A stretch of DNA of 64,000 nucleotides from Rhodobacterales bacterium 32-67-9 (lineage in GTDB: Bacteria > Pseudomonadota > Alphaproteobacteria > Rhodobacterales > Rhodobacteraceae): contig NCEA01000022.1 in NCBI GenBank assembly GCA_002280515.1, positions 1 to 64,000 on the forward strand. The letters are read 5' to 3'. The notes below the pieces were generated by a model. It was given only the letters and a program-made list of their open reading frames with translations. It was not told where the DNA came from and made no database searches. Positions 24,114 through 46,145 of this stretch are shown piece by piece (positions within the stretch are counted from its first letter, which is position 1; every line of letters begins with the position of its first letter). The translations under genes and the position numbers were made by a program.

Positions 24114-24154
24114 CCCTGTCGAAGAGCCGTTCGCTCTTCCTGCAATCGACAGGG
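24114..24154 (+). promoter_or_regulatory. long stem-loop covering the ribosome-binding site of the small exported protein gene
   Basis: CCCTGTCGA (24114-24122) pairs with TCGACAGGG (24146-24154). An inner perfect stem, GAAGAGC (24121-24127) with GCTCTTC (24133-24139), can form within it, with a one-sided bulge. The AGGG of the right arm is the ribosome-binding site of the gene at 24162. The structure could therefore limit translation of that gene, for example as a thermosensor or an attenuator. This is inference from base pairing. Confidence 0.5.
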
Positions 24155-24161
24155 TGAACAG

Positions 24162-24347
24162 ATGATCAAAGTCATTATCCTTGCAAGCATCGCCGCCGCT
24201 TCGGCGGCCCCCCTCCATGCCGCCCCCGACACCGGGATTTCGCCGCACCTGACCGGGGTGGACGAGGTCCAGCGCGTCGATCCCGGCAAGACGCTGAAGC
24301 TGATCAAGCGCATCAGGGACGCGGGCGGCGCCCGTATCGCATCGTAA
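24162..24347 (+). CDS. small exported protein with C-terminal DP-KTL-LI-RI-DAGG motif
   Basis: A 61-residue protein with a probable signal peptide (residues 1-21, cleavage after LHA). The mature part of about 40 residues ends in DPGKTLKLIKRIRDAGG and ARIAS. The same motif ends the small exported protein at 45843-46145, on the other side of the Tad/caspase island. The start at 24162 has AGGGTG 6-11 bases upstream; the longer in-frame start at 24069 lacks a signal peptide. The function is unknown. Confidence 0.6.
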   Translation: MIKVIILASIAAASAAPLHAAPDTGISPHLTGVDEVQRVDPGKTLKLIKRIRDAGGARIAS

Positions 24348-24502
24348 ACGACGCAGCCGCTGCCCTGGCGCGGCCGGGGTAGGCTCGTTCCGTCACAAAC
24401 GACGCCAGCCAGAGGAGATGACAGGATGTCCTGCCCCGTAATCGTGTCCGCCACGGCCCCGGAGCCGGCCACCGTCGCGACCACTGGAAGGAGGGCATCC
24501 AG

Positions 24503-26953
24503 ATGAGACGCCTAGGTTCCGGACTTCTCGCGGGCCTTCTCCTGTCCACTTGCCTGACCGGCGCAGGACAGGCGCAGGGCATGCGCGAACTAGACCGTTT
24601 GCTGGGCGGTGCCCCCGGTTTTCAGGCGCTTCGCGGCATCGACACCGCGACCCGCGCGGCGCGGCGCTATGCGATCGTGATCGGCAATTCCGACTATTCG
24701 GCGATCCCCGACCTGCCCAACGCCCATGCCGACGCGGGCGCCATGGCGGAGTTCTTCAAGGCGCAAGGCTATGAGGTGCATTTCCATCTCGACATCACCA
24801 AGCGCGGCTTCGAGGACACGCTCCGCCGGGTTCTCTTCGACGTCGACAAGGATACCGAGGTCGTCGTCTTCTTCGCCGGCCACGGCTTCCAGATCGGGTC
24901 GGAGAATTACCTCGTCCCCGTCGATGCCGATCTCGACACGATCTACGACGTGCCGTTCGAGGCGGTCTCGCTCGGCTCGCTCGTCGGCATCGTCGGCGCG
25001 CGGGCGCGGCTTCAGGTGGTGATCCTCGACAGTTGCCGCAACAATCCCTTCGCCGGGAAATCCGTCCTGACCCGCATCGGCAACGAGTTGCGCGAGGCGC
25101 GGACCGGATTTTCCTCGCAGGCCGCGCCCCTGAATTCGATGCTGATCTTCTCGACCGCGCCCGGCTCCGTCGCCTTTGACGGCGAGGGCACGAACAGCCC
25201 TTTCACCGCGGCGCTGATCGAAGAGGTCAGCGACGCGCCGGACGCGCTGGTCAAGGAGGTGTTCGAAGGCGTGCGGCGCATGGTGTTCGAGCGGACCAAT
25301 GGCCGCCAGGTGCCGTGGGACAGCTCCACCCTTGTCGAGCCGGCAAGCTTCGGCCTTGGCAACGCCCTGACCAAACCGATCCTCGTCAGCAGCACCGGCG
25401 GCGGGATCAATCGCGGTCTTGCCCGCATCGTGCCGCCGGAGGAGGCGAGCCAAGTGGTGCAGGTGGCCGAGACCCGCGCCGTCCTGGAGGCGGATTTCGT
25501 CCCCGAGGTGAAGATCGGCTTCGTCCTGCGCGACGGGCTTGATCTTGCGCCCACCGATACCGTGACGATCGTCAGGCAGCCGAAGACCGGGCGCCTGGTT
25601 TTGCCCGACGAAACCGGGTTCCAGCGCAACGTCGTGGGCGAAGCCCTGTCGAGCGCCGATGTCGACCGGCTGATCCTCGTCAACGATTCCGTGCAGGTGC
25701 CCGCGACCTCGCTCATAAACGGGGTGATCGAGGACGGCATCACCGTCAGCGTTGGCGGCGAAGAACAGCGCCTGCAACTGAACCTGAAGCCGAACCCTTG
25801 CGATTTCGAGGCGGGTGACCACCTCGACCCCGACGGCATGGGCCTCACGCGCTACGCCAACGAGATCCGCCCCGAACTGGCGCTGGAAGCCTGCCGCGCC
25901 GCCGTCGCGGCGGAACCCGACAACGGGCGCTTCCACTACCAGCTTGGCCGCGCGCTGATTTCGCTGCGCCAGACGGCCGAGGCGAAGGCCGAATTCGAGC
26001 GTGCAAAGGAACTGGGCCATACCCGCGCCTGGCAGGCGCTCGGCAACGCGATCCTGAACGAAGCGAAGGAAACCGGCGGCGTTTCCAATCCGAAGGCGTC
26101 CGAGGCGGTGCTTCAGCTTTTCGCGCAAGGTGTCGACAAGGGCGATCCTTACGCCTTCTACTCGCTCGGCCGGCAGTTCATGCGCTTCGGCGGCACCAAT
26201 GAAATCGAGATCGAGGGCTACGACCTGATGATGCGGGCGCTTGAGGTCGGCCATACCTTCGCGATGAACGAGCTTGGCTATTTCTACCTTCAGGAAGACG
26301 GCGAGTTCTACGACGCCGAGCGCGGACTGCGCTACCTGCGTGAAAGTGCCGCCCGCGACGACATCTACGGCTTCAACAACATGGGTCTTGTCTATCTGAA
26401 CGGCCTTGGCGGCACCGAAGTCGACGATGCCGCCGCCGTCGAGATGTTCCGCAAGGCGGCCGAGGGCGGTCACCCGAACGCGCCCTTCAACCTTGGCCGC
26501 ATGTACCGCGACGGCCGCGTCGCCGGCGGGCGCGACCTCAAGGCGGCGGTCGAATGGTTCAGCGAGGGGCTTGAGCGCGGCGACGCCAATTCCGGCGGCA
26601 ACGCGGCCTACCTGATTTCCAGCGAAGGGGTGGCGGGCTACGACCTTTTCGACGCCGCCGTCCTGGCCGCGAAAGCCGCCGCCCTCGTCAACCAGAACGC
26701 GGCGAAGCCGGCGCGCGAGTTGCTCGCGAGTTACAACGAGACGGCGCTGAACGGCGGCGCGCAGAAGCTGATCCGCGAGCTTGGCGGTGCGGTCGAGGCG
26801 GACGGTGCCTTCGGTGCGTCGAGCCAGGCGGCGATGGAGGCGGTTCTGGCCACGCATGGTGCCGGCCCCGCCAGGACCGATCCGCTCGACCGGATCGTCC
26901 AGCTTGCGATGCTGCGCTGGTCCACCTCTCCCTTCCGCGTCGATCTTTACTGA
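24503..26953 (+). CDS. exported caspase-family peptidase with Sel1/TPR repeats
   Basis: An 816-residue protein. Residues 1-25 are a signal peptide, and a caspase (peptidase C14) domain covers about residues 54-290. The catalytic dyad is visible: His127 in FFAGHGFQ and Cys178 in LDSCRNNPF. From about residue 430, helical repeats of the TPR and Sel1 type follow (for example MNELGYFYLQEDGEFYDA, FNNMGLVYLNGLGG, PFNLGRMYRDGRV). The start has GGAGG upstream. It is divergent in orientation from the main Tad operon but belongs to the same caspase-rich island. Substrates are unknown. Confidence 0.82.
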   Translation: MRRLGSGLLAGLLLSTCLTGAGQAQGMRELDRLLGGAPGFQALRGIDTATRAARRYAIVIGNSDYSAIPDLPNAHADAGAMAEFFKAQGYEVHFHLDITKRGFEDTLRRVLFDVDKDTEVVVFFAGHGFQIGSENYLVPVDADLDTIYDVPFEAVSLGSLVGIVGARARLQVVILDSCRNNPFAGKSVLTRIGNELREARTGFSSQAAPLNSMLIFSTAPGSVAFDGEGTNSPFTAALIEEVSDAPDALVKEVFEGVRRMVFERTNGRQVPWDSSTLVEPASFGLGNALTKPILVSSTGGGINRGLARIVPPEEASQVVQVAETRAVLEADFVPEVKIGFVLRDGLDLAPTDTVTIVRQPKTGRLVLPDETGFQRNVVGEALSSADVDRLILVNDSVQVPATSLINGVIEDGITVSVGGEEQRLQLNLKPNPCDFEAGDHLDPDGMGLTRYANEIRPELALEACRAAVAAEPDNGRFHYQLGRALISLRQTAEAKAEFERAKELGHTRAWQALGNAILNEAKETGGVSNPKASEAVLQLFAQGVDKGDPYAFYSLGRQFMRFGGTNEIEIEGYDLMMRALEVGHTFAMNELGYFYLQEDGEFYDAERGLRYLRESAARDDIYGFNNMGLVYLNGLGGTEVDDAAAVEMFRKAAEGGHPNAPFNLGRMYRDGRVAGGRDLKAAVEWFSEGLERGDANSGGNAAYLISSEGVAGYDLFDAAVLAAKAAALVNQNAAKPARELLASYNETALNGGAQKLIRELGGAVEADGAFGASSQAAMEAVLATHGAGPARTDPLDRIVQLAMLRWSTSPFRVDLY

Positions 26954-27293: not shown

Positions 27294-28076
27294 TCATCCA
27301 CGCGCGGCGGCGATCTCCGCGTCGCTCAGCCCGGCGGCGATCATCCGCCGCTGCATCAGGAGCGAAATGCGATAGGTATCCTCGAGGAACCCGTTCGAGG
27401 CGATGAGGATGCGCTTCTGGTCCGCCGACATCCGCTCGTCGATGCGCCGGTCGAGGAGCTTGCCGTAGCGCAGGTCCTCGATCAGCTTCTCGGTCGTCTT
27501 CGGCGACATGTCGTCGATCAGGAGATGCCCGTATTCGTAGATCGCGAAAATTGGTGCGTTGAAGGTGCGGATCGTGTCGAGGATCTTGGCCTGCCGCTCG
27601 GGCCGGATGATCGCCTTGCGGTATTCCTTTTCGCTTTTCGAGAAGTCCGGACTTCCGATCTGCTCTTCGAGCCGCGCGTTGTGCGAGCCGATGAAGGCGG
27701 CGATGTGGTCGGCGCTGGTGCAGTCGAGCGCCTTGAGGAAGAAGAGGAACTGGGTGAAGTGCAGAAGGTAGTCGTGGCCGTTCGCCCCCATGATCGTCGG
27801 AAATTCGGCAAGGGGTGCGGTTTCTTCGAGCTTCTTGCGCACCGTCTCGAAGAACCAGTTCTCGGATCTGAGGGCGATTTCAACCGTGTCGAAGGCGAGT
27901 TTCAGGCTCTCGCGCCCGTCCCCCCGCGCGCCGCCCGCCTCTGTCAGACCCGCCTCGATCATCTCCCGTCCTCCGGCGAGGATCGTCAGGTTTGCCTGAT
28001 GCCCTGTCAAGTAGCTGGCATAGGGGGCCTGGTCATTGACGATGACATGAAGCGGTGGGGGTCGCTTTGCGGACAC
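27294..28076 (-). CDS. hypothetical protein at the end of the Tad/caspase operon
   Basis: A 260-residue soluble protein that I do not recognise. It has no signal peptide or membrane segment and is rich in charged helical segments (FFETVRKKLEETAPLAEF, EKEYRKAIIRPERQAKILD). Codon use resembles the rest of the operon. It lies 23 bases downstream of cpaA and is the last gene of the minus-strand operon, so it is probably co-transcribed. No function is proposed. Confidence 0.6.
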   Translation of the reverse strand: MSAKRPPPLHVIVNDQAPYASYLTGHQANLTILAGGREMIEAGLTEAGGARGDGRESLKLAFDTVEIALRSENWFFETVRKKLEETAPLAEFPTIMGANGHDYLLHFTQFLFFLKALDCTSADHIAAFIGSHNARLEEQIGSPDFSKSEKEYRKAIIRPERQAKILDTIRTFNAPIFAIYEYGHLLIDDMSPKTTEKLIEDLRYGKLLDRRIDERMSADQKRILIASNGFLEDTYRISLLMQRRMIAAGLSDAEIAAARG

Positions 28077-28099: not shown

Positions 28100-28759
28100 T
28101 CAGAAAACCGGTCCGCCCATCCAGATCAGAAGCTGTGCCGCCCCGAGTGCCGGGGCGAGCGGCAGGGTGCGATCGGTGCCGCGCGCCACCGGCACGCAGG
28201 TCGCCGGGCGCAGATCGACGAGATGGCCTAGGCCAAGCCGGCCAAGAAGGAGAAGGCCGGTCAGGAACAGAAGGTCGGGCAGGTTGGCGGGGCCGAACCA
28301 GGCCACCGCGCCGGAGAGGAGCAGCACGTCCCCTGCGCCGAGCCAGTCGGCGCGGTGCCGCAGTGCCAGATTCAGCGCCAGCGCGGCCCCGACGAGGCCG
28401 AGGATGGCGATGGCGAAGACGAGGCTGGGGGCCCCGTTCATCTGGGCATGGATCAACCCGAGAGGGATCAGCGGCAGGGTGAGGATGTCGGGCACCGTGC
28501 GGCTTGCCGCGTCGATGACCGCGAGGCCGCTGAGGCCAAGGATCAGCACCATGCTCCAGAGCGCGAAGCCGAGCGGTACCGGGCCGGGCACAAGGACGAG
28601 CGCCATGAGCGCCGGCGTCGCGGTCGCGCCGAGATAGGTGTTGGGCGCGACCCTGATCCCGTCGAACTGCGAGGCGAGCATCGCGCCGATCGTCGCCGAC
28701 AGGCTGGCGATGGCGACGAAGCTCCAGGCCGGCAGGTGCAACGCGGTGAGATCGGGCAT
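28100..28759 (-). CDS. cpaA: prepilin peptidase CpaA/TadV-like
   Basis: A 219-residue polytopic membrane protein of the A24 type IV prepilin peptidase family. The two catalytic aspartates are in VIDAASRTVPDIL and WLGAGDVLL (the GxGD motif). It would process the small pilin-like peptides and TadE-like proteins encoded upstream in the operon. It lies 3 bases after the caspase gene. Confidence 0.75.
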   Translation of the reverse strand: MPDLTALHLPAWSFVAIASLSATIGAMLASQFDGIRVAPNTYLGATATPALMALVLVPGPVPLGFALWSMVLILGLSGLAVIDAASRTVPDILTLPLIPLGLIHAQMNGAPSLVFAIAILGLVGAALALNLALRHRADWLGAGDVLLLSGAVAWFGPANLPDLLFLTGLLLLGRLGLGHLVDLRPATCVPVARGTDRTLPLAPALGAAQLLIWMGGPVF

Positions 28760-28762
28760 GGC

Positions 28763-30337
28763 TTACCCCCGGACGGTGTGGAACGGAAAGACGGCGACCC
28801 CGGGCGGGGTAGGCAGCGACCGGGCATAGGCGCGGAACCCGTCCCAGAACCCCGCCACGTCGCGCGACCCGTCAAGGCGCCGCAGCATCTCGCGCAGGTC
28901 CGGCGCCGGGGCGTCGGTCTCGATCGCGATCACGGTGTCGGCGCCGAACGGCGCGCCGACTTCCAGCGCAAGGCCGAGCTTGGAGTCGGCCACGATCTGG
29001 TCCGGGTCGCCGAGGTCGGGGCGCGGATAGAGAAAGGCGATCTTGCCGTCCGAGGCGATGTTGAGAAGCGTCAAGCCCGGGCGTTCGCGGCCCGTCACCC
29101 GCACCGTGACCACATCGCCGCGCCGGTAGGTCCCGTCGCCGCCGAGGAAGGTCACGTCAAGGCCGCCGGCCATCCCCGCGAGCGCGCCCCTCAGCCGCTG
29201 GGTGTCGGCCACCGCCTGTACATCGACCCGCATCGCCGGGGACGGCGAAGCGGCCACCTCGCGCACGACGTCGCCGACCATCGAGCGCAGCGCCCCCGTC
29301 GCCATCTCGAGGCGGAGGTCGGCGGCGGTACCGGGCGGCACCAGCGTCACCCCGCGGAGCCCGGCCAGAAGCCGGTCGCCCTCCGGCCCGCCATCGTGCG
29401 ACAGCGTGACGGCCGGAAGCGCGTCGAAACCGAGGTCCACGGGCCGGTCGCCGGCAACCGGCGTCGGATTGCCGCGAAGCGCGATCACCACCCGGTCGCT
29501 TTCGCCCGCCGGCGCCACCTGCGGGCGCTGCGAGCCTTGCGAGACGCTGCGGACCTTGCGGCGCACGAAGGTCTCGATCTCACCCTTGGTCAGGGCGCGG
29601 TCGCCGTCGGCATCGGCTTCGCCACGAAGGCCGGCCGCGAAGGCATAGCTGAGCGCGCCGCGCGGCTTGCCGTCGATGAGGAATTCCGGCGTCTTTTCGG
29701 ATTCGTCGACCGCCGCGAGAAAGAGTGCGGCCTGCTCGCGTCCTTCGGCCCCGGCGGCGCGGGGCGGTGGCGGCGGCAACGGATCGGCCTCGATCCGGCC
29801 GACCGAGACGTAGCGGAAGCCGAGCGCCGGGGACAGGTTGCGCGACATGGTGCCGGAATAGCAGGCATCGGCGACGAAGATTGTCTGACCGTCGCCGGCA
29901 AGCGCGATCAACTCGGCGATCTCGTCGTCGCGGATGCGTTCGGCGGCGGCGGCGCCATAGGGGGCGAAGCCGGACAGCAGCAGCGTCTCGTCGCGCCCGT
30001 CCGCCTCGCTGCCGGAAATATGCTCCGGCTCGTTGGAGCCGTGCCCGGCATAGCTGACGATCAACTGGTCGTCGGGCGCGAGCCCGGTGGCGAGCCGGTG
30101 CCATTCCGAGAGGATCGCAGCGCGGCTCGCGGCCCCATCAAGAAGCGTGGTCACCTCGGCGTCGAGCCCGGTCAATGCCGCGGCGATGTCGTTCGCGTCG
30201 TTCACCGCGCCGTGCAGGTCGGCGACGAAACGGTAATCGTCGATCCCGATGACGAGGGCATAGATGCGACCCGCCCCGGCCTCGGCCGGGACGCAGAGCA
30301 GGCCGGTGGAGAGAACGGACCAGAGGGGCGCGTGCAT
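28763..30337 (-). CDS. exported caspase-family protein with intact His/Cys dyad
   Basis: A 524-residue protein with a probable signal peptide (residues 1-22). A caspase-like domain covers about residues 24-275, with His99 in SYAGHGSN and Cys159 in ADACYSGT. A calcium-loop-like segment DADGDRALTKGE (242-253) follows. The C-terminal half (about 300-524) contains a DUF4384-like beta region (YRRGDVVTVRVTGRE, IASDGKIAFLYPRP). It is encoded between an OmpA-type protein and cpaA. It is likely periplasmic or surface-exposed; the substrate is unknown. Confidence 0.8.
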   Translation of the reverse strand: MHAPLWSVLSTGLLCVPAEAGAGRIYALVIGIDDYRFVADLHGAVNDANDIAAALTGLDAEVTTLLDGAASRAAILSEWHRLATGLAPDDQLIVSYAGHGSNEPEHISGSEADGRDETLLLSGFAPYGAAAAERIRDDEIAELIALAGDGQTIFVADACYSGTMSRNLSPALGFRYVSVGRIEADPLPPPPPRAAGAEGREQAALFLAAVDESEKTPEFLIDGKPRGALSYAFAAGLRGEADADGDRALTKGEIETFVRRKVRSVSQGSQRPQVAPAGESDRVVIALRGNPTPVAGDRPVDLGFDALPAVTLSHDGGPEGDRLLAGLRGVTLVPPGTAADLRLEMATGALRSMVGDVVREVAASPSPAMRVDVQAVADTQRLRGALAGMAGGLDVTFLGGDGTYRRGDVVTVRVTGRERPGLTLLNIASDGKIAFLYPRPDLGDPDQIVADSKLGLALEVGAPFGADTVIAIETDAPAPDLREMLRRLDGSRDVAGFWDGFRAYARSLPTPPGVAVFPFHTVRG

Positions 30338-30346: not shown

Positions 30347-31249
30347 CTAGCGGGTCTGGAAGCCGACGCGGCGGGCGATGCGGTAATGTTCCTCCGACCC
30401 TTCCACCACGCCCGGCGGCGCCGGCGGCAACTGGCTTTCACCGAAGCCCTCGGTCTCGATCTCGCCGGAAAAACCGCGCGATTTCAGGTAGGTGCCGAGC
30501 GCATCGGCGCGGGCGAGCGACAGGGAGATATTGTAATCCTCGCTGCCGATCGGGTCGGTGTGGCCGCCGAGGATCACGTGGCGCGCGCCCATCCCCTTCA
30601 GGTGATCGGCGAGCATCTGCGCGTATTCGGCGCCGCGTTCGTCGAACTGGGTGCTGGCGAACTGGAAGGTGATCGGCAGTTCGACCTCCTCGACGCTGAA
30701 ACCGCGGATCGAGGTGGCGAAAACGCCGCCAATCTCGCCGCTGCGGGTCCGCGGCATCTCCACGGCGCTGTCGGCGAGCGCGAGGGATGCCGAGGCCATC
30801 TGGTAGACCTCGGCGATTTCGGAGGTCTCGGCGGCATGGGTCGGGTCGCCGTCGACAAGTTCGTTGATGGCAAGCTGGAAGTTGAGAGCGGCGGAGCCGT
30901 ATTTGTGATCCGACCAGTCGAGCCGGCCCAGCTCGGCATAGCTGCGCCAGTGCTTCTCGAATCCGAGCGCGCGGGTCAGCCCGGCGCGGCGGTCCCCCGG
31001 CGTCACCGAGGCATCCATCGCCTTCAGGAAGCTGTCGCGCGCGAGGTAATCGCCGAGCCATTCGCGCAAGGCGTCGTCGCAATCGGCGGCGACGGCGATG
31101 GTCTCGTACAACTCGGCCGCGCGGGGGGCGTCGTCGGCCTCGACGGCGGCGACGACAGCGTCATACTGGGCGCAGGCGAGGGCGCCGGTGGCGGCGAACT
31201 GGCAGAGCACCAGCGCGGGGGCGAGGCGGCGGCTAAGCGGAAACGGCAT
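30347..31249 (-). CDS. OmpA-family peptidoglycan-associated protein
   Basis: A 300-residue exported protein (signal peptide about 1-25). The N-terminal half is helical and repeat-like. The C-terminal OmpA domain is about residues 185-300, with the peptidoglycan-binding pattern GGHTDPIGSEDYNISLSLAR and the following RRV. It would anchor the system to the cell wall. It sits between the caspase and the pseudocaspase genes with gaps of 9 and 20 bases. Confidence 0.8.
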   Translation of the reverse strand: MPFPLSRRLAPALVLCQFAATGALACAQYDAVVAAVEADDAPRAAELYETIAVAADCDDALREWLGDYLARDSFLKAMDASVTPGDRRAGLTRALGFEKHWRSYAELGRLDWSDHKYGSAALNFQLAINELVDGDPTHAAETSEIAEVYQMASASLALADSAVEMPRTRSGEIGGVFATSIRGFSVEEVELPITFQFASTQFDERGAEYAQMLADHLKGMGARHVILGGHTDPIGSEDYNISLSLARADALGTYLKSRGFSGEIETEGFGESQLPPAPPGVVEGSEEHYRIARRVGFQTR

Positions 31250-37953: not shown

Positions 37954-39729
37954 GATCGCCCCCGGTGTCGAAGAACCCTTCGATGTCGATCAGGCCGTGA
38001 TCGGCCATCTCCTCGAAAAAGCTCGGGATGTAGCCCGAGATGGCGAAGCGCAGGCGACCGGCGGTCTCGGCCGCTTCGTTCAGGCGGTGGGTCTCCAGCG
38101 ACAGGGCCTCTCGCAACAGGGACATGTCGTTGCGCGCCCGTTCGGCGGCGAGCGCCGCCTGATCGATGTCGTTGCGCAGGGCGTCATCGACCCGGAATGG
38201 CCGGTGTTCATCGCCTGCAGCATGTCGAGCGTCTCGCCGCCCCGGCATTCGCCGACGACGATCCGGTCGGGCCGCATCCGAAGCGCGTTGCGCACGAGAT
38301 CGCGGATCGAGATTTCGCCGCGCCCGTCCATGTTCGCCCGCCGGCTTTCCAGGGTGACGAGGTTGCGGTTGAGAAGCCTGAGTTCCGACGTGTCCTCGAT
38401 GGTGACGATGCGCTCGCCCTCGGGCACGAACATGGCGAGCGCGTTCAGCAGCGTGGTCTTGCCCGAACCGGTGCCGCCCGAGATCACGATGTTCTTGCGC
38501 GCCTTCACGCAGGCGCCCAGAAACCGCTCCATCGGCGGCGACATGGCGCGGTTGCGGCGCAGGTCCGCGACCGACCAGTGGCCCTTGCCGAATTTGCGGA
38601 TCGTCAGCGAGAGCCCGCCAAGCGAGGTCGGCGCGGCGACGATATTGGCGCGGCTGCCGTCGGGCAGGCGCGCGTCGGCCATCGGCGCGCCCTCGGTCAA
38701 CTGCTTGCCATCGCGCCCGGCGATCCGGGCGGCGACGGTGAACAGCTCGGATTCCGAGGCGAACGAGAGGCCGGTCTCGAACATCCGGTTGCCCTTCTCG
38801 ACGAAGATCCGGTCAAAGCCGCAGACCATGATCTCCGAGATCACCGGCACGTCGATCAGGAACTGGATCGGCCCGAGCCGGAAGAAGAGGCCCATGACCT
38901 TCTCGCGCACCGCGTCGCGGATCAGCGCAAGCTTGAAGGTCTCGCCGATCATGCCCGAGACGGTCTTGTAGGCGGCGTCGAAGCCTTCGTGCAGGCGCTG
39001 GAGGTCGGAGGCGGTCGAATGGGCGCTCATCTCCAGCCGGAGTTCCGATGCCAGTTCCTCGCGCAGCTCGATCGAGCGGGCGCGCTGTTCGGCGTTCAGC
39101 TGCGAGAACGACAGCTCGATGTCACCCCGCGTCCCGCTCATCAGGCAGGCGGAGATCAGCGGACGGCGCAGCGCCTCCTTGCAGTAGCGGTTGATCGTGG
39201 CGATCATGCCGGGCTTGCCGGCAAGGTCGAGTTCGACCGAGAGAAGCCGGTCAAGCTCGGCCGACAAGAGCGCCTCGCGCTGGCGGTCGTCGCCGTCGAA
39301 GAGGTCGCGGCGGCGGTCCTCGTAGTCGAGAAGCGCCTCGTTCATCATCAGTTCGATGTCGGAAAGCTCCGGCATCACGGCCTGTTCGGTGACGCTCTTG
39401 TTGAGGTCGAGAAGTTGCAGCAGGTTGTTGCCGAGCCAAAGCTCGGTCCCGTCGGTCAGCACCGTCGCCGCGTCGCGGGCAAGGTCATGGCGGCCAAGCT
39501 TGGTGCCCTTGGCAACCAGCGAGACGACCTGCCAGACCTCCTCGCCCGCCCGCTGCATCAGCCGGGCATGGCGCGCCTCGATGCCGCTGCCTTCAAGGTG
39601 GATGTAGCCCGGCTCTCCGCGCCGGGTGCGGTCGGCGCCCAGCTCGTAAAACGTCTCTTCGAGCGGGAGGACCGCGCGGCGGTTGCCGTAGGCGTCGCAG
39701 ATCCTGAGATGGGCGCGCGCCTTGCTCAT
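37937..39729 (-). pseudogene. tadA: FHA-TadA/CpaF-type ATPase with internal deletion and frameshift
   Basis: The first frame (from 39729) encodes an N-terminal FHA-like region (about residues 1-110) and a CpaF/TadA ATPase with Walker A GGTGSGKTT, RIVTIEDTSELRL and Walker B VVGECRGGE. It is normal up to NTGHSGSM, then reads out-of-family residues to an early stop at 38080. A second frame from about 38190 to 37937 ends in ISGYIPSFFEEMADHGL, which fits the usual CpaF tail. The His-box (TTxHA) and the following segment are missing. The joint (38184-38191) contains TCGATGAC on the coding strand. A deletion or an assembly error is likely; an unusual but functional short form is less so. Confidence 0.65.
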
Positions 39730-40439
39730 TGGCCGACGCTCTCGGCGATGCAGTCGTCGGCCCCTTCGCAGGGATTGCGCAGCACCAGCGTCAGCCCGCC
39801 CGAAGCATCCTCGGCCGCGGCGAGGAAGCTTTCCACCGCTGCCGCCGGCGCCTGGAGCGTGACGGAGTTGTAGTCCGGCCGGTCCTGGGTCTCATATTCG
39901 CCGCGGCTGTCGATCTCGCCCACCGCCATCACCTCGATATCTTCGAGCAGAAGCTTCGCGACCGACTGGTTCTGGCTGACCTCGAAGGTGCCGATCACGT
40001 CGACGCGGGCGCCGGGGGCGATGAACTTCTCGACCGCGCGCCGCGCCTCGACCGGGATCGAGAAGGCGCGGTTGCCGGGGCGGATGCGACGGGCAAATGC
40101 GTTTTCCGGGGCCACGAAGAACTGCGCGCGTTGCAGGAAGCTGCCCGAGGGCACGTCGGCCCCGAAGACCCGGCCGCGCAGGTTGATCCGGGTCGCGGCA
40201 TTGTCATCGAGCACCCATTGGAACTCGGCCTCCAGAAGCTGCGGCATTTCCTGCGAGACGACGTATTTCTCGATGAAGGCATCGTCGATCTTCGTGCCGG
40301 CGCGGATCACCAGCCCGTCCTCGGCGACCAGCCGGAGCTTGCGCACAGTTGCGGTCTGGGCGACGACGTCCTGATAGTAATAATAGGCCATGCCGAAGGC
40401 GAGCAGGGCGGCGAGGACATAGAAGATACTGCGCATCAC
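39726..40439 (-). CDS. cpaB: Flp pilus assembly protein CpaB/RcpC-like
   Basis: A 237-residue protein with an N-terminal membrane anchor (residues 4-20) and a SAF-like domain typical of CpaB/RcpC. It is shorter than usual. EDGLVIRAGTKIDDAFIEKY and GNRAFSIPVEARRAVEKFIAPG are characteristic. It is a periplasmic assembly component. It overlaps both neighbours by 4 bases. Confidence 0.75.
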   Translation of the reverse strand: MMRSIFYVLAALLAFGMAYYYYQDVVAQTATVRKLRLVAEDGLVIRAGTKIDDAFIEKYVVSQEMPQLLEAEFQWVLDDNAATRINLRGRVFGADVPSGSFLQRAQFFVAPENAFARRIRPGNRAFSIPVEARRAVEKFIAPGARVDVIGTFEVSQNQSVAKLLLEDIEVMAVGEIDSRGEYETQDRPDYNSVTLQAPAAAVESFLAAAEDASGGLTLVLRNPCEGADDCIAESVGQ

Positions 40440-41131
40440 TCCTCCAGGTACTTGACGATGACCGTGGACCGGCTCGCCGCTGCGGGGTCGGGCTGAACGT
40501 AAAGGAAGAGCGCGCAGTCCTGGCGTTGTCCGACAAAAAACGACGTGCTTGCATCCGAGGCATCGGTGATCTTGAACCCCTGCCGCGTCATCAGCTCGAC
40601 ATAGAGCGGTGCGGTCTCCGCGGGCGGTGCCGGTTGCGACAGGATCACCTGGCCTGCGCAGCCGCCGGTCGCGCCGTCGTTCATCAGGACCGAAGCCCCC
40701 TTCGGCAATTCCGGACCGAGTGCGGTGACAAGCGCGCCGGGATCGGCGAGGGCGGGGGAACTCAGCATCACCCGCATCTGGGTGCCGGTCTCTGCCGGAA
40801 CCAGCGCGAGGCTCAGGTTGACCTCGGCTCCGGGCGCCAGAAGGGCGGCGTCGATCTCAGGCACGGCGGCCAGCACGAAGCGGCGGAGCGGGTCGGGGAT
40901 CTCGTTGCCGGCATAGGCCATCATCAGCACGCCGCCTTCGTCAACGAGGTCGAGCGCGCCGCCGAGATCGGCGCTGAGCCGGGCGGCGACGATCTTCGGC
41001 GGCTGGTCGACGTCGGTGACGAAGGTCCGGAGCGGGCCGGGAAGCGTCTGGCCGACCGCGCCGATGGGCAGGAGGAAAAGCGCGGCCGCGCCGATCAGGC
41101 CGTGCCGGAGCACGCGAGGCAAAGGGGTCAT
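40436..41131 (-). CDS. hypothetical exported protein in the Tad operon
   Basis: A 231-residue protein with a signal peptide (about 1-28, cleavage after AVG) and no recognised domain. It contains cysteines in GGCAGQV and QDCALF that could form a disulfide. The start at 41131 is preceded by AAGGAA; the longer in-frame start at 41158 lies inside the upstream gene and would weaken the signal peptide. Its position between TadE-like and CpaB genes suggests a periplasmic assembly role. Confidence 0.6.
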   Translation of the reverse strand: MTPLPRVLRHGLIGAAALFLLPIGAVGQTLPGPLRTFVTDVDQPPKIVAARLSADLGGALDLVDEGGVLMMAYAGNEIPDPLRRFVLAAVPEIDAALLAPGAEVNLSLALVPAETGTQMRVMLSSPALADPGALVTALGPELPKGASVLMNDGATGGCAGQVILSQPAPPAETAPLYVELMTRQGFKITDASDASTSFFVGQRQDCALFLYVQPDPAAASRSTVIVKYLEE

Positions 41132-41132: not shown

Positions 41133-41741
41133 TCACTTGTTCCTTGAGGGAAAGACATTGGGGAAAAGCTTGTAGGTGTTGCGCTGGCGCAGGGCCTGCC
41201 AGATCACCTTGTCGTGCGCCGCTGTGTAGGGTTTCGTGCCGTGGTCCCAGAACTTCGGTTCGGGGCTGATGTAGGTCTGGCGCGACGTGACGGCGCCTTC
41301 CTTTTGCAGGAACGATGGCTTGGAGAGCAGGAACGTCCCGCTCCCGTCGCCCTTCACGTCGTTCACCGGCTCCTTGCGGTCGACATCGCGCAGGATCTGC
41401 GGCCAGGCCCGGGCGCCGTCGCGCAGCGCGCGGAAAAAGGGTTTTTCGCGGCTCAGCCCCTGTTCGGCCCGGTAGCCGGCGCAGGTAACGTTGGCCGAGG
41501 CGCTGACCCCGGATTTCGCGCCGAAGGGCGTACGGTCGGCAGTGCAGCTGACCAGCCGGGGCAGGGTAGAACTGGCGGCGCTGACCGTGCTCGCCCGGGT
41601 GAAGACCGCGACCTGCTGGCGGGTCAGCATCCCTTCCACGACATAGCGCGCGGTCAGCATCACGATGATCGCGAAGGGGACGATCAGCACCGCTTCCAGC
41701 GACAGCGAGCCGCGGCGCCGGCGGTTAAGGTCAATGCGCAT
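41133..41741 (-). CDS. TadE-like minor pseudopilin
   Basis: A 202-residue protein with a basic N-terminus followed by a hydrophobic helix starting GSLSLEAVLIVPFAIIVML, the TadE/TadF pattern with a conserved glutamate for prepilin processing. The rest is periplasmic with several cysteines. The start at 41741 was chosen because it gives the expected short leader (MRIDLNRRRR). It overlaps the upstream gene by 11 bases. Confidence 0.7.
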   Translation of the reverse strand: MRIDLNRRRRGSLSLEAVLIVPFAIIVMLTARYVVEGMLTRQQVAVFTRASTVSAASSTLPRLVSCTADRTPFGAKSGVSASANVTCAGYRAEQGLSREKPFFRALRDGARAWPQILRDVDRKEPVNDVKGDGSGTFLLSKPSFLQKEGAVTSRQTYISPEPKFWDHGTKPYTAAHDKVIWQALRQRNTYKLFPNVFPSRNK

Positions 41742-43239
41742 TGACCCGCCCCCATGTGCCCCGGCTGGACACGGCGCCAAGCGCGGTGGCCAGCGGGCGG
41801 AACGCCGCCTTCGCCTGGCGCTGAAGATCGCGCGCCATCTTCGCGGGATCGTCCACCCGCGTCGCCGGCATCATCCGGTAGCGCCAGTTCTGCGAGAAGA
41901 GGTCGGCGCCGTCCGGGTTGTAGACCCCGACCTGACCATAGCCGAAATGGCTTTCCACCGTCTCGGTCAGCACCTGCGCGGCGAGCCTGCGGCCCTTGTC
42001 CTTCTGGGTCAGAGCCAGCACACGGAAGGCGTCGGGCATCCGGTCGGGCTGCACGATCGGCAGGGGGTTCAGCGGCGGGATGTCCTTGAGTTGCCAGAAG
42101 GTCGGCACCGGCGCCTCGATCTCCATCCGCACGAGCTGGTTGAGCGGCCCCGTCACCGCCTTGCCGACGAGGCAGAGGCTCGCGAACTTGGCGTCATAGC
42201 GGCGGGTGAAGGCGTTGTTGCGCGTCGCCTGCTGCGGGCCGAAGAGGTTCGGGGCGATGCCCTTCTTGTAGGGCACCCAGAGGTGGATGTATTCGCCGAG
42301 AAGCGTCGAGGGGCTGTCGTAAAAGTCCTTGAATTTCTTCAGGTCGCGGCCGATCCGGGTCGTGTCGTTGATATGGTCCTTCACCACGGGCCTCGACCGG
42401 GCGCCACCGTAGGTCATCGGCCCCTTGCCAAAGGGAAAGCCGCGCTGGCGGAAGGTAGTGAAACGGGCGGTTGTGCCGAACTGCATCGCCGCGCAGAACT
42501 GGCTCCGCGCTTCGAACTCACCCTTTTCCAGCGGCAATGCCATGCCGTCGCTGGTATTGGTTTTTGTGCAATTCTTGACCCCGTAGCCATTGCAGGGATC
42601 GGCGAAGTGGAAGGCTTCGATACCAAGCTCTTTGGCGTATTCCTCGCCGATCTCGCGCATCGCGCGGGGGAACCGTTCGACGATGGCGCGGTTCATCCCC
42701 TCGATGGCACGAAGCGCCTTGTGCGACACCTCGATGCCGTGGTTCGGGTCGTAGCGGGCCTCGGTGATGAAGGTCTGGGCGAGGGCGAGGTTCGCCGGAA
42801 TGGCCACGGCGCCGTGGTTGATCATGCACGGCGTGGTCCAGGCCGCCGCGATCGCCGCGGCCGAGATCGGGTCGGCGGTCCGGGGCGGGCAATGCAGCGC
42901 GCCATGCCCGATGATATAGGCGTCGACCAGACCGGCGGTGATGCGAATCTCCTGCAAGGTGCCGGCCAGCGCCTCGGACCCGATGGCGACGGTCAGGAGC
43001 TGCGTCGCGGTCACATTGTTCATCGAGATGACGTTGAGCGACCGCGCCGTCCAGGTGCCGTGCATCGCGGCCAGCGCATCGGCGCCGTCCTGGGTCATGC
43101 GGCGTTCGTTGACCATCTGGCCGCTGTTGGCATTGGCGGCGATCATCGCCGTGACCGGGATCATCGCGGCGACCGCGACGATGGCCACGGCGCCCCGGCG
43201 CCGGCGCGACAGGAGCGGTCTGAACGCCGCGCCGATCAT
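41731..43239 (-). CDS. TadG-like pilus-associated protein
   Basis: A 502-residue protein. A short basic leader (LLSRRRRGAVAIVAVAAMIP) and one membrane helix are followed by a large exported part. The segment NANSGQMVNERRMTQDGADALA is like TadG and other proteins with an N-terminal Flp-type helix. No von Willebrand factor A motif is evident. It overlaps TadE-like genes at both ends. Confidence 0.65.
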   Translation of the reverse strand: MIGAAFRPLLSRRRRGAVAIVAVAAMIPVTAMIAANANSGQMVNERRMTQDGADALAAMHGTWTARSLNVISMNNVTATQLLTVAIGSEALAGTLQEIRITAGLVDAYIIGHGALHCPPRTADPISAAAIAAAWTTPCMINHGAVAIPANLALAQTFITEARYDPNHGIEVSHKALRAIEGMNRAIVERFPRAMREIGEEYAKELGIEAFHFADPCNGYGVKNCTKTNTSDGMALPLEKGEFEARSQFCAAMQFGTTARFTTFRQRGFPFGKGPMTYGGARSRPVVKDHINDTTRIGRDLKKFKDFYDSPSTLLGEYIHLWVPYKKGIAPNLFGPQQATRNNAFTRRYDAKFASLCLVGKAVTGPLNQLVRMEIEAPVPTFWQLKDIPPLNPLPIVQPDRMPDAFRVLALTQKDKGRRLAAQVLTETVESHFGYGQVGVYNPDGADLFSQNWRYRMMPATRVDDPAKMARDLQRQAKAAFRPLATALGAVSSRGTWGRVNAH

Positions 43240-43892
43240 CGCAGCACCACCGTCGCCTCGCCCCAGCGCCAATAGGTGCCGTCGCCGCGCCTGCCGTCCA
43301 TGACGAAGCGCCGGAACGGGGTGGAAAGCGGATACTTGTAGCGCACGCGCGCCCGGATAGGGACCGAATCTGCGCTGGCCAGAAGCGAGAGGCCGGACTG
43401 CACCCATTCCACCTCGACCTCGACATTGCCGGGCTCGTAGGCGTAGCAGAGCGCGTTGGCGACGGCCTCGTCGTAGCCGCCGAGCTTGCCGGTGCCCCGG
43501 ATCACCTCCTTGCCGGCGGCGATGTCGGGGCAGGTGCCGCGCCCGCTTGCAAACCCGGAGGTGGAGGCGGCCGCGCCCAGCGCCCAGCGCGCGGCGTCCT
43601 GCCATTTCTGCGGCTCGTCGGTGCATTGAAACGTCGCCACGGCCGCGAAGGGCGAGCCGAAAGCCTGGGTCAGGCTGAAGGGTGGGCATTTGTAGACAAG
43701 AGCGCTGCGGGCGGCGGCATAGGCCGCCATCTCGACATAGGTCCGGGCCTGGGCGAGGATCAGGATCTGTGCGGCGCCGCCGAAGAGGACCAGAAGCGCG
43801 GGGAAGGCCAGCACCGCCTCGATCCCGATCGCGCCCCGGCGCCGGCGTGCCAGGGCGCGGGCGATTGCCCGATGAAGCGCCGCGCGGGTCAT
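43236..43892 (-). CDS. TadE-like minor pseudopilin
   Basis: A 218-residue protein with a basic leader followed by GAIGIEAVLAFPALLVLFGG, the TadE signature helix with its conserved glutamate. The exported part has four cysteines. It overlaps the third pilin-like gene and the TadG-like gene by 4 bases each. Confidence 0.72.
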   Translation of the reverse strand: MTRAALHRAIARALARRRRGAIGIEAVLAFPALLVLFGGAAQILILAQARTYVEMAAYAAARSALVYKCPPFSLTQAFGSPFAAVATFQCTDEPQKWQDAARWALGAAASTSGFASGRGTCPDIAAGKEVIRGTGKLGGYDEAVANALCYAYEPGNVEVEVEWVQSGLSLLASADSVPIRARVRYKYPLSTPFRRFVMDGRRGDGTYWRWGEATVVLR

Positions 43893-44038
43893 TTGAGCTT
43901 GTCCACGGTGGTCTGGACCTTCTCCTGATAGCCCTCGTAATCGGGTTTGCGGTCGTTCGCCATGTTGGTCGCGGTGAAGGCGAGCGCCGAGGCCACGGCA
44001 AGGCCGAAGCCGAAGATCAGGAGCTTTTCCAGGGTCAT
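43889..44038 (-). CDS. Flp-like mini-pilin or pilin-like membrane peptide
   Basis: A 49-residue peptide starting MTLEKLLIFGFGLAVASALAF. It has one hydrophobic helix and a charged C-terminus ending VDKLK. It shares the MTLEKLLIFGF start with the peptide at 44069-44218 and lacks a long leader. It is the smallest class of candidate major subunits in this operon. It overlaps the TadE gene by 4 bases. Confidence 0.6.
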   Translation of the reverse strand: MTLEKLLIFGFGLAVASALAFTATNMANDRKPDYEGYQEKVQTTVDKLK

Positions 44039-44068: not shown

Positions 44069-44218
44069 TCAGAAGCCGGCGTTCTTCAGGCCGTCGACCT
44101 CTTGCTTGAACTCGTCGTTCGCGGTGCCACGGTCCTTCATCATGTTGGTGCCGACCGTGGTGATGGCGAAAAGGGCGGCGAGCGCGAAACCGAAGATCAG
44201 GAGTTTCTCGAGGGTCAT
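44069..44218 (-). CDS. Flp-like mini-pilin or pilin-like membrane peptide
   Basis: A 49-residue peptide starting MTLEKLLIFGFALAALFAI. It is a paralogue of the next peptide, with a single hydrophobic helix and a polar tail (ANDEFKQEVDGLKNAGF). A longer in-frame start at 44269 lacks a ribosome-binding site and would overlap the third peptide. Glu4 could be the helix glutamate of Flp pilins. Confidence 0.6.
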   Translation of the reverse strand: MTLEKLLIFGFALAALFAITTVGTNMMKDRGTANDEFKQEVDGLKNAGF

Positions 44219-44265: not shown

Positions 44266-44385
44266 TCACTTCATGATTTCTTTGACTTGCGTGATGACGA
44301 AGTCGACGATCTCGTTCCCCATCGTCGCGAGAACCGTCGCGATGGCGAGGGCGAGCGCGAAATACAGCAAGTATTCCAGTGACAT
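44266..44385 (-). CDS. 39-residue pilin-like membrane peptide
   Basis: It starts MSLEYLLYFALALAIATVLA and ends ITQVKEIMK. It is a single hydrophobic helix with Glu4 at the same place as in the two following peptides, so it is probably a third paralogue. It is below the size of most gene callers, but gene order, an upstream AGGATCACC and the shared N-terminal pattern support it. Confidence 0.55.
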   Translation of the reverse strand: MSLEYLLYFALALAIATVLATMGNEIVDFVITQVKEIMK

Positions 44386-44489
44386 GAGGTGATCCTTTAT
44401 CCCGTGGCGGATCACGTATCCGCTGGTGCCAGAATAGATCGGGCAGGGGCCGGGCCGCGGCGCGTCGTTTTCAGTGCGACAGGTGCGGG

Positions 44490-45515
44490 TCAGGCGGCCG
44501 CAACCCGTTCCAGCGGGCTTTCAGGGCCGCCGGTTCCGCGCTGGAAGATCGGCAGGGTGGCATATCCTGCCGCCTCGGCGCCGGCCCCGGCCACTTCGGC
44601 GATCTCGACCACCACGCGCCGGCCGTCCTTGCGCCGGACCTGCACGATGAGGTCGATCGCCTCGATGATCTGGCGCCGGACCGCGATCAGCGGCACATCG
44701 ACATCGGACATGAGGCAGAGCGTCTCCAGCCGCGACAGCGCCCGCATCGGATCGTCGGCATGGACGGTCGAGAGCGAGCCGGCATGGCCGGAGTTCATCG
44801 CCTGGATCATGTCGAGCGCCTCGCCGCCCCGGCATTCACCGACAAGGATGCGGTCGGGGCGCATCCTCAGCGTGGCGCGGAAAAGGTCGCGGATCGTCAC
44901 GCCGCCGCGTCCCTTTGCATCGGGCATCTGCGCCTCGAGCTGCACGACATGCGGCATCCTGAGGTCCAGCTCGGCCACGTCCTCGATGGTGATGATCCTT
45001 TCTTCCGGCTTCATCATCCGGGCAAGAAGGCCGAGCAGCGTGGTCTTGCCGGTGCCGGTGCCGCCCGAGATGATGATGTTGCGATGGCCGAGAACCTGGG
45101 CGCGCAGATAGTCGATCGCCGCTTCGCTCAGCGACCCGCTGTCGATCAGGTCCTGAAGCGTCGGCGGCTGGCGCGCGAACTGGCGGATGGCGATGGTGAT
45201 CCCGGCCCGCGCCGCCGGGTCCTGCACGATGTGGACGCGCGAACGGTTCGGCATCCGCGCCTCCAGCGACAGGTTCTCGGGCGTCAGCCGCTTGCCGGAA
45301 TATTGCAGGATCACCCGGGCGAGGGCACGCAGGGCCGCCGGGTCGCGCATCCGGTGTTCGGTCCTCTCGATCCCGTTCCTGCCGTCGACGAAGATGTCGT
45401 CGGGGCCGTTGATCATGATTTCCGAGATCGAGGGGTCGTCGTAATAGGCGACGAGCGGCCCCATCAGGTGACGCACCAGCGCATCATATGCGGCCTCGGA
45501 TCCCATCGCACTCAT
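44490..45515 (-). CDS. tadA: Tad/Flp secretion ATPase TadA (intact copy)
   Basis: A 341-residue CpaF/TadA-type ATPase with Walker A GGTGTGKTT, Asp-box RIITIEDVAELDL, Walker B LVGECRGGE and an intact His-box GHAGSLSTVHADDP. The start at 45515 gives MSAMGSEAAYDALVRHLMG; a further ATG three codons on is possible. It lacks the FHA-like N-terminus of the second TadA (37937-39729). It powers pilus assembly with TadB and TadC. Confidence 0.85.
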   Translation of the reverse strand: MSAMGSEAAYDALVRHLMGPLVAYYDDPSISEIMINGPDDIFVDGRNGIERTEHRMRDPAALRALARVILQYSGKRLTPENLSLEARMPNRSRVHIVQDPAARAGITIAIRQFARQPPTLQDLIDSGSLSEAAIDYLRAQVLGHRNIIISGGTGTGKTTLLGLLARMMKPEERIITIEDVAELDLRMPHVVQLEAQMPDAKGRGGVTIRDLFRATLRMRPDRILVGECRGGEALDMIQAMNSGHAGSLSTVHADDPMRALSRLETLCLMSDVDVPLIAVRRQIIEAIDLIVQVRRKDGRRVVVEIAEVAGAGAEAAGYATLPIFQRGTGGPESPLERVAAA

Positions 45516-45646
45516 CCGAACGGCAGCGCGTAGATCAGCGTCTTGATCGCCATCGAGGTGACGAGGACGCGCTTGAGCAGAAGCAGAAGTCCCATGAACG
45601 CAGTGAGCGCGACCCCGGCGGTCAGGAGATAGTCGAAACTCACCAT
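45512..45646 (-). CDS. 44-residue membrane peptide, first gene of the Tad operon
   Basis: It starts MVSFDYLLTAGVALTAFMGL with one transmembrane helix, and its basic C-terminal half reads KRVLVTSMAIKTLIYALPFG. Its stop overlaps the tadA start (4 bases). GGAGG lies 7-11 bases upstream of the ATG. Together with the three pilin-like peptides it makes four tiny membrane peptides in this operon. Confidence 0.5.
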   Translation of the reverse strand: MVSFDYLLTAGVALTAFMGLLLLLKRVLVTSMAIKTLIYALPFG

Positions 45647-45842
45647 GTCGTAGCCTCCCTGTGGCTGGGGCGGACCCGGAAAGCACGGTATCCGCCCTAG
45701 TAATTCACAGGATTTCCAACCGGTTGCGGCGGCTTCGTAAGTTAAACGACGCCGACCCGGTTCCGTGGCGAGGGGCTATTCTCACGGCAAGTTGAACGGC
45801 AAGACGCCGCCCTTCCACCGCCCAGATGCCACGGAGTTCCCG

Positions 45843-46145
45843 ATGCGCCGCATGTTCCTTCCAGTCCTTCTCATCGCCGCCTCGAGCGGTGTGGAGGCCC
45901 GGGAATGCGCGGAGCTTGGTCTCTCGAACGACTACCTCTCGGCCATGTTCTGCGCCGAACTCAAGGCGATCGCCGGAGGAACGGTGTCGCGCGGCGTTGG
46001 TGACGGGGGCAGTGCGCAGGACGTGCTGCCTCTGCCTGAATGGCCCGAGGTCGAGATCCTCCAGGATGCCTTCCGCGCCGACCCGCGCAAGACGCTCGAC
46101 CTGATCCGGCGGATCAAGGATGCCGGAGGGCTTGCCTCCGAATGA
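45843..46145 (+). CDS. small exported protein with C-terminal DP-KTL-LI-RI-DAGG motif
   Basis: A 100-residue protein with a signal peptide (about 1-19). Cysteines are in ECAELG and FCAELK and may form a disulfide. The C-terminal DPRKTLDLIRRIKDAGG matches the small protein at 24162-24347 in 13 of 17 positions. It is divergent from the Tad operon, and the 196-base region between them (45647-45842) should hold both promoters, though I cannot name clear -35/-10 pairs. The function is unknown. Confidence 0.6.
   Translation: MRRMFLPVLLIAASSGVEARECAELGLSNDYLSAMFCAELKAIAGGTVSRGVGDGGSAQDVLPLPEWPEVEILQDAFRADPRKTLDLIRRIKDAGGLASE

Follow-up and report, generated by a model that had tools for sequence, protein, structure and literature searches.

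A 64,000-nucleotide window of the draft genome of Rhodobacterales bacterium 32-67-9 (assembly GCA_002280515.1, 60 contigs; positions 1 to 64,000 of the forward strand of contig NCEA01000022.1) contains a tight string of minus-strand genes, hereafter the module, in which a Tad-type pilus apparatus is joined to a caspase, a catalytically dead caspase, an OmpA-type protein and a membrane-spanning pseudokinase with an FGE-like domain. The order of these genes was kept wherever they matched in 11 genomes of the family Rhodobacteraceae, and a related pairing is present on plasmids of Rhizobium. The conserved association of Tad genes with the caspase, pseudocaspase and pseudokinase-FGE genes can be regarded as real with very little room for doubt; it is rare and, judging from its depth, is probably old. 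The explanation favoured here, at a probability of about 0.4, is that this self-standing module builds a contact-linked Tad pilus (type IVc), driven by two motor ATPases, together with an envelope arm that holds proteases and releases them.

Gene content of the module

A codon-usage gene caller placed 19 genes in the minus-strand string from 45646 to 27294, with an overlap or a gap of at most 30 bases at 16 of the 18 junctions, close to the approximately 20 tightly joined genes given for this span in a preliminary description of the window. The two larger gaps lie between TadA1 and the first Flp pilin (271 bases) and between TadA2 and TadB (126 bases), the second coinciding with a broken TadA2 frame. 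The genes are listed in order of transcription, followed by a third caspase encoded on the other strand just past the end of the string (numbers after family names are E-values).

45512..45646, minus: 44-residue membrane protein, directly before TadA1
44490..45515, minus: TadA1, first Tad-type ATPase, without an FHA part (Pfam T2SSE, 1.7e-49)
44069..44218, minus: Flp-type pilin, 49 residues (hydrophobic N-terminus, same place in relatives; no Flp match in Pfam)
43889..44038, minus: second Flp-type pilin, a paralogue of the first
43236..43892, minus: TadE-type minor pilin (Pfam TadE, 2.9e-4, just below cut-off)
41731..43239, minus: TadG-like large minor pilin, candidate tip (no Pfam match in the window copy)
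41133..41741, minus: TadF-like minor pilin (by position and one N-terminal hydrophobic segment; no Pfam match)
40436..41113, minus: probably exported, fast-evolving protein without an assigned role (hydrophobic N-terminus)
39726..40439, minus: CpaB/RcpC (Pfam RcpC, 1.6e-19; TIGR03177 above its cut-off)
38080..39729, minus: TadA2, second ATPase, with FHA-like N-terminus (T2SSE, 5.7e-44; frame broken)
37081..37953, minus: TadB platform protein (T2SSF, 3.9e-10)
36164..37084, minus: TadC platform protein (T2SSF, 7.3e-8)
35328..36164, minus: FHA-like domain, one transmembrane segment and a helical C-terminal part, SctD-like in layout (Pfam in relatives, structural model, PDB profile match)
32727..35306, minus: pseudokinase with one transmembrane segment (approximately residues 331-352), a helical linker and an FGE-like C-terminus without the FGE cysteines
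31270..32730, minus: pseudocaspase with DUF4384, predicted to be exported (Pfam, alignment, N-terminus)
30347..31249, minus: OmpA-type protein, predicted to be exported (Pfam OmpA, 1.1e-10; N-terminus)
28763..30337, minus: caspase with intact His and Cys and a weak DUF4384, predicted to be exported (Pfam C14)
28100..28759, minus: prepilin peptidase, CpaA type (Pfam Peptidase_A24, 2.1e-12)
27294..28076, minus: conserved last gene, product without a hydrophobic segment (51-91% identity with the window copy in an alignment across 7 genomes)
24503..26953, plus: third caspase, with TPR and Sel1 repeats, intact His and Cys, and a signal-type N-terminus (Pfam C14)

Comparison of the window proteins with Pfam and NCBIfam returned T2SSE twice, CpaB, T2SSF twice, Peptidase_A24, OmpA and FGE-sulfatase; the protein matching the last of these also gave a kinase match below threshold. 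Peptidase_C14 was matched twice within the string together with DUF4384, the latter under its cut-off in the intact caspase, and once more, with Sel1, in the plus-strand gene at 24503-26953. The His/Cys caspase, the dead caspase, the OmpA protein and the membrane-spanning pseudokinase-FGE protein, all named in the preliminary description along with the third caspase on the opposite strand, were borne out by these matches and by residue alignments.

A Tad apparatus is indicated by a TadA-type ATPase accompanied by TadB and TadC, by the A24 prepilin peptidase (Pfam), and by pilins recognised from size, hydrophobic N-terminus and place. This apparatus had been described as reduced, which holds for the outer-membrane part, there being no secretin inside the module, but needs correcting in that two TadA ATPases are present; no match to TadZ/CpaE or TadD was found by Pfam and NCBIfam among the 20 window proteins scanned. 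Secretins occur elsewhere in all 10 carrier genomes searched, at one per genome and two in genome G604 (the distant family member G156 lay outside that search), and the module may borrow the canonical Tad secretin. In a tree of ATPases, the 13 TadA1 rows from modules fell on one side of a branch with support of 100/100. Residues 1-522 of the window's TadA2 match an intact 647-residue relative in a genome of the same genus (G013), residues 602-647 of which are matched in another frame, and this break (window 37937-39729) is either a real mutation or a fault of the draft assembly. Homologues of the TadG-like protein in Rhizobiaceae are annotated as, or match, a Tad domain, and the neighbouring protein at 40436..41113 shows 27-45% identity outside the closest genome. 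The C-terminus of the TadG-like protein (41731-43239) is Ala-His in 8/8 aligned copies.

The window's genome contains two other Tad loci. Gene calls in the 13 and 18 kb fetched around them gave no caspase, FHA or pseudokinase match, except that 37 residues of a pilin matched the linker of the caspase; an OmpA-type gene there is 31% like that of the module. Another Tad locus in this genome is at L074 2352-10715 (genome G000, contig C24), and the sole secretin match of the genome lies elsewhere, on contig C1.

The partner caspase of the string retained both GHG and DxC in all the complete copies that were read, namely those of the window, six more family genomes, G156 and Rhizobium. In the pseudocaspase, the catalytic Cys was lost in 10/10 aligned members and the His in 8/10, with both lost in G156. 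Export was judged from an N-terminal hydrophobic core with an 11-residue mean of at least 1.8, an author-set threshold used in place of a signal-peptide predictor; the cleavage-box part of the test was dropped, as exported and non-exported rows alike nearly always passed it. By this measure a hydrophobic signal-type N-terminus was present in all eight partner caspases, all ten pseudocaspases and eight of the ten OmpA proteins; no tested row of the two ATPases, the FHA protein, the pseudokinase or the last-gene product had one. A hydropathy scan of the type used for transmembrane segments found the caspase N-termini unremarkable, these standing out only in the shorter-window test. On the evidence of the N-termini, the string's caspase and pseudocaspase are very probably exported.

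Active kinases carry a VAIK-type Lys and an HRD Asp, and active FGE enzymes a cysteine pair before a C-terminal RCA. The HRD Asp was absent from all 7 aligned pseudokinases and from 4/4 more distant ones (11/11 in total; HGN, HGG or HNA instead), and no VAIK-type Lys was seen by eye in any of the 7. The FGE part is clearly matched (Pfam 6e-39; best PDB match SUMF2), and no catalytic cysteine pair occurs in its KGGSW...LR stretch in 7/7 aligned copies, on which ground a catalytic FGE was rejected. Phosphosignalling between an active kinase and FHA domains was not favoured, given the loss of the kinase Asp and the absence, in 10/10 FHA-like transmembrane proteins of the family, of the Arg that follows the first Gly of the domain; the Rhizobium copy has GR at this place.

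The label of FHA-like given in the preliminary description appears correct but is weak by sequence. The TadA2 N-terminus matched Pfam FHA in 4/5 members, with a best E of 0.0019 and a value below cut-off for the window copy (0.059), and comparison with solved structures gave no convincing relative. For the FHA-like transmembrane protein, Yop-YscD_cpl was matched in 5/10 members (best E 6.4e-5), with no Pfam match for the window copy and a Pfam FHA match of E 5.2e-11 for the Rhizobium copy. A profile of eight relatives, one Rhizobium-type row helping, matched FHA (E 4e-4) and a ring protein of the type III secretion system (T3SS; E 0.004) among solved structures. In a ColabFold model (mean pLDDT 77.9, pTM 0.45), residues 9-107 form a beta-rich N-terminal domain and residues 126-148 a long helix, and the C-terminal part is also helical; the predicted layout fits SctD/YscD.

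Conservation in the family and related pairings elsewhere

The 11 family genomes compared by tblastn with the window's genes comprised the window's own, G013, G006, six named or metagenome-assembled genomes (MAGs), a Rhodovulum and the distant G156, of which G006 and a Paracoccaceae MAG (G603) are represented by fragments. In 10 of the 11, a single contig carries both TadB/TadC and the pseudocaspase; in G006, also of the window's genus, the module extends over two contigs and the break falls within the pseudokinase gene. Synteny with G013 is full and includes the flanks. In G156, the same order is found at 27-63% identity, together with two caspases with intact His and Cys and with no match to the exported protein following TadF, the prepilin peptidase, the last gene or a small secreted protein described below. 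The third caspase adjoins the string, at either end, in the window, G013, Litoreibacter, R2Bin84, Kangsaoukella and Silicimonas, and lies on another contig in MAG-191, where tblastn found no match to the prepilin peptidase. In Rhodovulum sp. 12E13 the closest caspase to the string is approximately 8 kb away and only 34% alike. Adjacency was therefore conserved in relatives, rather than the Tad and caspase/FGE genes lying at separate loci, the outcome that the preliminary description had set against its own proposal.

Searches for the TadA2 N-terminus point to a restricted distribution. A pattern scan covering 84,980 species, each represented by a single genome, gave 8 loci, every one in an alphaproteobacterium; as it relied on two short peptide patterns, it will have missed relatives. 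The loci were in Litoreibacter, two Rhodobacteraceae MAGs, a Paracoccaceae MAG, Kangsaoukella pontilimi, Silicimonas, Rhodovulum sp. 12E13 and a G006-like MAG. With the window's genome counted each time, the N-terminus was matched in 5/295 family genomes, four of them module carriers, in 2/289 and 2/385 genomes of two class-level draws, and in 3/398 of a phylum-level draw; the family search match G191 was not a module. The full pseudokinase-FGE protein occurs in 3/22 genomes of the genus, once split over two contigs. Carriage of the family module on plasmids was rejected, as the TadA2 N-terminus had no match in plasmid records at E 1e-5. In a genome of another family of the same class (G341), the 44-residue protein and TadA1 are found approximately 8 kb from TadE, TadG, TadF, CpaB, TadA2, TadB, TadC, the FHA-like transmembrane protein and the pseudokinase.

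Comparison of the window's TadG and TadC with plasmid records by tblastn matched 89 records each, 88 from Rhizobium and one from Neorhizobium. In strains WSM1325 (R. leguminosarum), TP15 (R. ruizarguesonis) and 3841 (R. johnstonii), a Tad half faces a protease half. The Tad half comprises TadA1, small proteins, a peptidase, TadE, TadG, TadF, a protein without an assigned role, CpaB, TadA2 (not listed in the annotation table of TP15), TadB, TadC and an FHA protein. The protease half comprises a kinase, a serpin, a trypsin-like protease, a caspase, a DUF4384 protein and, farther along, another caspase; in WSM1325, Pfam placed trypsin, caspase and DUF4384 in one protein, alongside a serpin, an OmpA protein with DUF4384 and a caspase with Sel1. 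Triad motifs were present by eye in the trypsin, which looks active from its sequence, and the neighbouring caspase keeps both His and Cys. Serpin and TadC were convergent and 6.0-30.2 kb apart in 56/56 records common to two lists (the best 60 of 102 records and the best 60 of 89). On plasmid pRL11 of strain 3841, IS5, IS91 and integrase genes lie between the two halves (L086 21655-24869). Profile comparisons without common rows related the pseudokinase-FGE protein to the Rhizobium kinase (E 4.9e-12, probability 97.5, partly through a low-complexity linker) and the TadA2 N-terminus to its Rhizobium counterpart (E 5.6e-11, probability 97). A comparison of the FHA-protein profile (A8) with the Rhizobium FHA protein was left unused as circular, since the profile contains a row (L081) of the same kind. 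The ATPases of genome G641 are a near-copy of the Rhizobium type, and the Tad and FHA-like transmembrane part is present in the piece fetched. The protease half is probably the protease/inhibitor metacaspase operon described in Rhizobium in 2012 (PMC3501461), in the main text of which no word starts with 'pil' and the Tad half and wider module do not appear.

A gene annotated with a tail fibre domain adjoins the caspase-Sel1 gene in two of these loci (L085 4818-5492; L083 5318-5965), the Neorhizobium copy carrying an S74 chaperone domain by Pfam and the WSM1325 copy having no match. An OmpA-caspase-caspase trio on plasmid p2 of Azospirillum sp. TSA2s (L082 15212-19389), considered again below, lies near a VirB-type type IV secretion system and beside a tubulin-like gene.

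Genes at the edges of the module

Three further features adjoin the module in the window.

45843..46145, plus: small secreted protein of approximately 100 residues, divergent from the module (aligned in 8 genomes; start codon uncertain)
24162..24347, plus: 61-residue paralogue of the small secreted protein (common C-terminal motif)
46577..47332, plus: Crp-type regulator, adjoining the module in 4 loci (window, G013, R2Bin84, Silicimonas)

The two small proteins stand at opposite ends of the module, and both have a signal-type start. Two Cys of the larger one are invariant in an alignment across 8 genomes, and a motif search showed that its C-terminal motif, DPxxTLxxIxRIxxAGG, is common to both proteins; likeness to a Rhizobium counterpart is suggestive at most (hhalign probability 7.5). 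As a guess, these proteins could be a substrate or ligand of the device.

The Crp-type protein is a possible regulator of the module. A nucleotide cyclase also adjoins the module in the window (46577-48117 region, with Crp) and in G013, and the stretch between the halves contains a cyclase gene in 2 of the 3 Rhizobium plasmids examined closely (L084 18210-20138; L086 16347-18275), making control by a cyclic nucleotide possible. Beyond these, the flanks hold transport, metabolic and regulatory genes. The left neighbour (48127-49053) has matches in 6/22 genomes of the genus, being 81-100% alike only in three carriers and 30-38% alike in three others, and in 4 same-genus genomes the right-hand transporter gene is followed by genes without a match in the window. 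A tRNA called by ARAGORN at 35582 was rejected, as it lies inside a gene and was assigned no amino acid.

Possible mechanism and competing explanations

Gene content, gene order, conservation and the keeping or loss of catalytic residues were established directly, and the favoured explanation adds to them the following mechanism. The two motors would drive extension and retraction of a pilus with a TadE/F/G tip. Both FHA-like proteins, the motor and the membrane protein, would dock on the cytoplasmic pseudokinase through domain contacts and not through phosphate signalling, while the FGE-like periplasmic part of the pseudokinase and the OmpA protein would hold the complex on ligand and cell wall. 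Dead relatives hold or activate their partners in other protease systems, and the dead caspase may similarly pair with the active caspase, holding or activating it. Contact or pilus load would then unleash periplasmic or surface proteolysis, directed at a module protein (a tip pilin and the small secreted protein being candidates) or at the surface of a neighbouring cell, and the biological use would be attachment to surfaces or hosts and their colonisation. The location in Rhizobium of a trypsin on the dead caspase, with an adjoining serpin, fits a restrained protease switch. A more specific version, put forward tentatively and open to considerable doubt, is a pilus-gated extracytoplasmic protease relay, in which pseudoenzyme scaffolds (pseudokinase, pseudo-FHA and pseudocaspase) would hold active caspases, and in rhizobia a serpin-restrained trypsin as well, at the foot of the two-motor pilus, such that the touch of a surface or cell would fire proteolysis, in parallel with clotting-type cascades of enzyme look-alikes.

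One published phenotype bears on the proposed use. The gene pRL110591 of R. johnstonii 3841 was reported as needed for colonisation of lentil roots (PMC11103875, part of the text). Its place was obtained by counting back from the eight-gene cobalamin operon pRL110625-32 (PMC5118466, part of the text), which corresponds to RL_RS32910 to RL_RS32945; to within about one gene, pRL110591 would be RL_RS32735 (OmpA-DUF4384) or RL_RS32740 (small, with a signal-type start), both of which are in the module.

Several observations weigh against the favoured explanation. The lentil phenotype comes, by the wording of the available part of the paper, from pooled samples without independent replicates, and concerned one plant of five (PMC11103875). 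Rhodovulum sp. 12E13 is without the string's active caspase, and the 37 kb fetched from G341 yielded neither a caspase nor an FGE match; the caspases are therefore not needed for the core. Only 3/7 copies of the third caspase, the window's included, passed the N-terminus test, the starts of the others being uncertain. The module has no secretin of its own through which a pilus would leave the cell, the FHA assignment of the TadA2 motor appears weak by sequence, and the 12 TadA2 rows of the ATPase tree group weakly (75/55), with long-branch warnings. In Rhizobium, the FGE match of the kinase is poor (E 0.0077 in WSM1325; 5.7e-9 in Neorhizobium galegae), and the pseudocaspase part has Gln in place of His and keeps the Cys. 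The Rhizobium counts come from close relatives that are not independent. Several Tad genes of N. galegae plasmid pNgVX are split over frames (L083 20029-24564), and the module there seems to be decaying. The Azospirillum trio has no Tad gene within 18 kb, and both of its caspases, including the relative of the pseudocaspase, keep His and Cys. Finally, the roles of all proteins in the window's organism are assigned by inference from sequence.

A specialised adhesion pilus, whose caspases merely process or quality-control its pilins and secreted proteins, would account for the prepilin peptidase and minor pilins within the same string and for the divergence of TadE, TadG and TadF (38-56% alike between the window and Litoreibacter, compared with 80-86% for the ATPases and TadB), as would be expected of exposed tips. 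This is nevertheless rather unlikely, as the 13 and 18 kb fetched around the same genome's two other Tad loci show no caspase gene, and the conserved dead enzymes, the FGE part and the rhizobial serpin and trypsin exceed the needs of processing. Compared with canonical Tad/Flp systems, the module shares TadA, TadB, TadC, CpaB, CpaA, Flp pilins and TadE/F/G-type minor pilins, and differs in its two ATPases, FHA-like motor and protease arm, and in having no secretin and no TadZ or TadD match. The FHA-like part N-terminal to the TadA2 ATPase would, if a true FHA domain, be a feature shared with class III CpaF motors, and alphaproteobacterial CpaF is almost exclusively class II, without FHA, according to the part of that study available (PMC12019362); TadA2 would be an exception to this rule.

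The known system closest in kind is the Kil machine of Myxococcus, the likeness being drawn from published descriptions of Kil. A rival reading is a Kil-like contact-killing machine, in which a pilus grips other cells and the exported proteases serve as the weapon or its arming; several features of Kil have possible counterparts in the module. Kil is described, in the parts of the sources available, with an N-terminal FHA domain on its ATPase, many FHA proteins, TadE/F/G-type tips and a T3SS-like basal body (PMC8460266, PMC12075869), and the FHA-like membrane protein of the module has an SctD-like predicted layout, a possible parallel to the T3SS-like ring link. However, Kil has its own secretin, KilC, whereas the module has none, and neither caspase nor kinase appears in the main text of the 2021 Kil paper (PMC8460266). 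The Pfam and NCBIfam matches pointed to no immunity-type gene within the string, several proteins of which have no family match. Moreover, the carriers (Rhodobacteraceae and legume symbionts) are not known to be predators, which counts further against this improbable alternative.

Still less probable is a self-killing or defence device, in which phage or damage at the pilus would trigger periplasmic caspases and lysis of the cell. Bacterial conflict systems repeatedly contain caspases and FGE-type domains, as seen in the available parts of two surveys (PMC7159879, PMC9612521), and PADLOC matched a caspase (E 1e-14) and the MkoA kinase (E 3e-10) among the window proteins, and MkoA (E 3e-16) and MAD6 (E 2e-15) with the Rhizobium kinase. 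These matches are partial and, for the window proteins, mostly weak, and the flanks consist of transport, metabolic and regulatory genes. Known caspase defence systems act in the cytosol, which the signal-type N-termini of the module caspases do not fit. The roles in defence or kin discrimination raised in the preliminary description thus stay hypothetical, as does its proposal that a Tad-like platform assembles or displays the device. The module has in common with caspase-gasdermin and conflict systems the caspase fold and FGE/C-type-lectin domains, and differs in that its caspases are predicted to be exported and are joined to a pilus; no gasdermin, vWA-MoxR or nuclease match was found in the string by Pfam and NCBIfam, though several proteins there match no family. 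That a Tad locus and a caspase operon are neighbours by chance, which their patchy distribution might suggest (the module was carried by 4 of 295 family genomes), is rejected by the synteny, with gene order kept across genera with different flanks and at 27-63% identity in G156, and by the related pairing in another taxonomic order.

In agreement with the preliminary description, no description of a system joining Tad and caspases was found in the literature searched, subscription papers being mostly outside that search. Caspase and FHA do not occur in the part seen of a study of Tad in Rhodobacterales (PMC8383342), nor does the module in the parts seen of rhizobial Tad or secretion papers (PMC10934763, PMC2275737), and nothing on it was present in those seen of two others (PMC3333776, PMC5758756). 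There is a fair chance that the protease arm makes the module something new. Tad pili and bacterial caspases are two fields that are joined here and were not found joined in print. For most bacterial caspases no purpose is known; these results give one class of them a physical context that is conserved, along with a dead partner and a probable compartment. The version on plasmid pRL11 of Rhizobium johnstonii 3841 makes the question testable in a well-studied legume symbiont.

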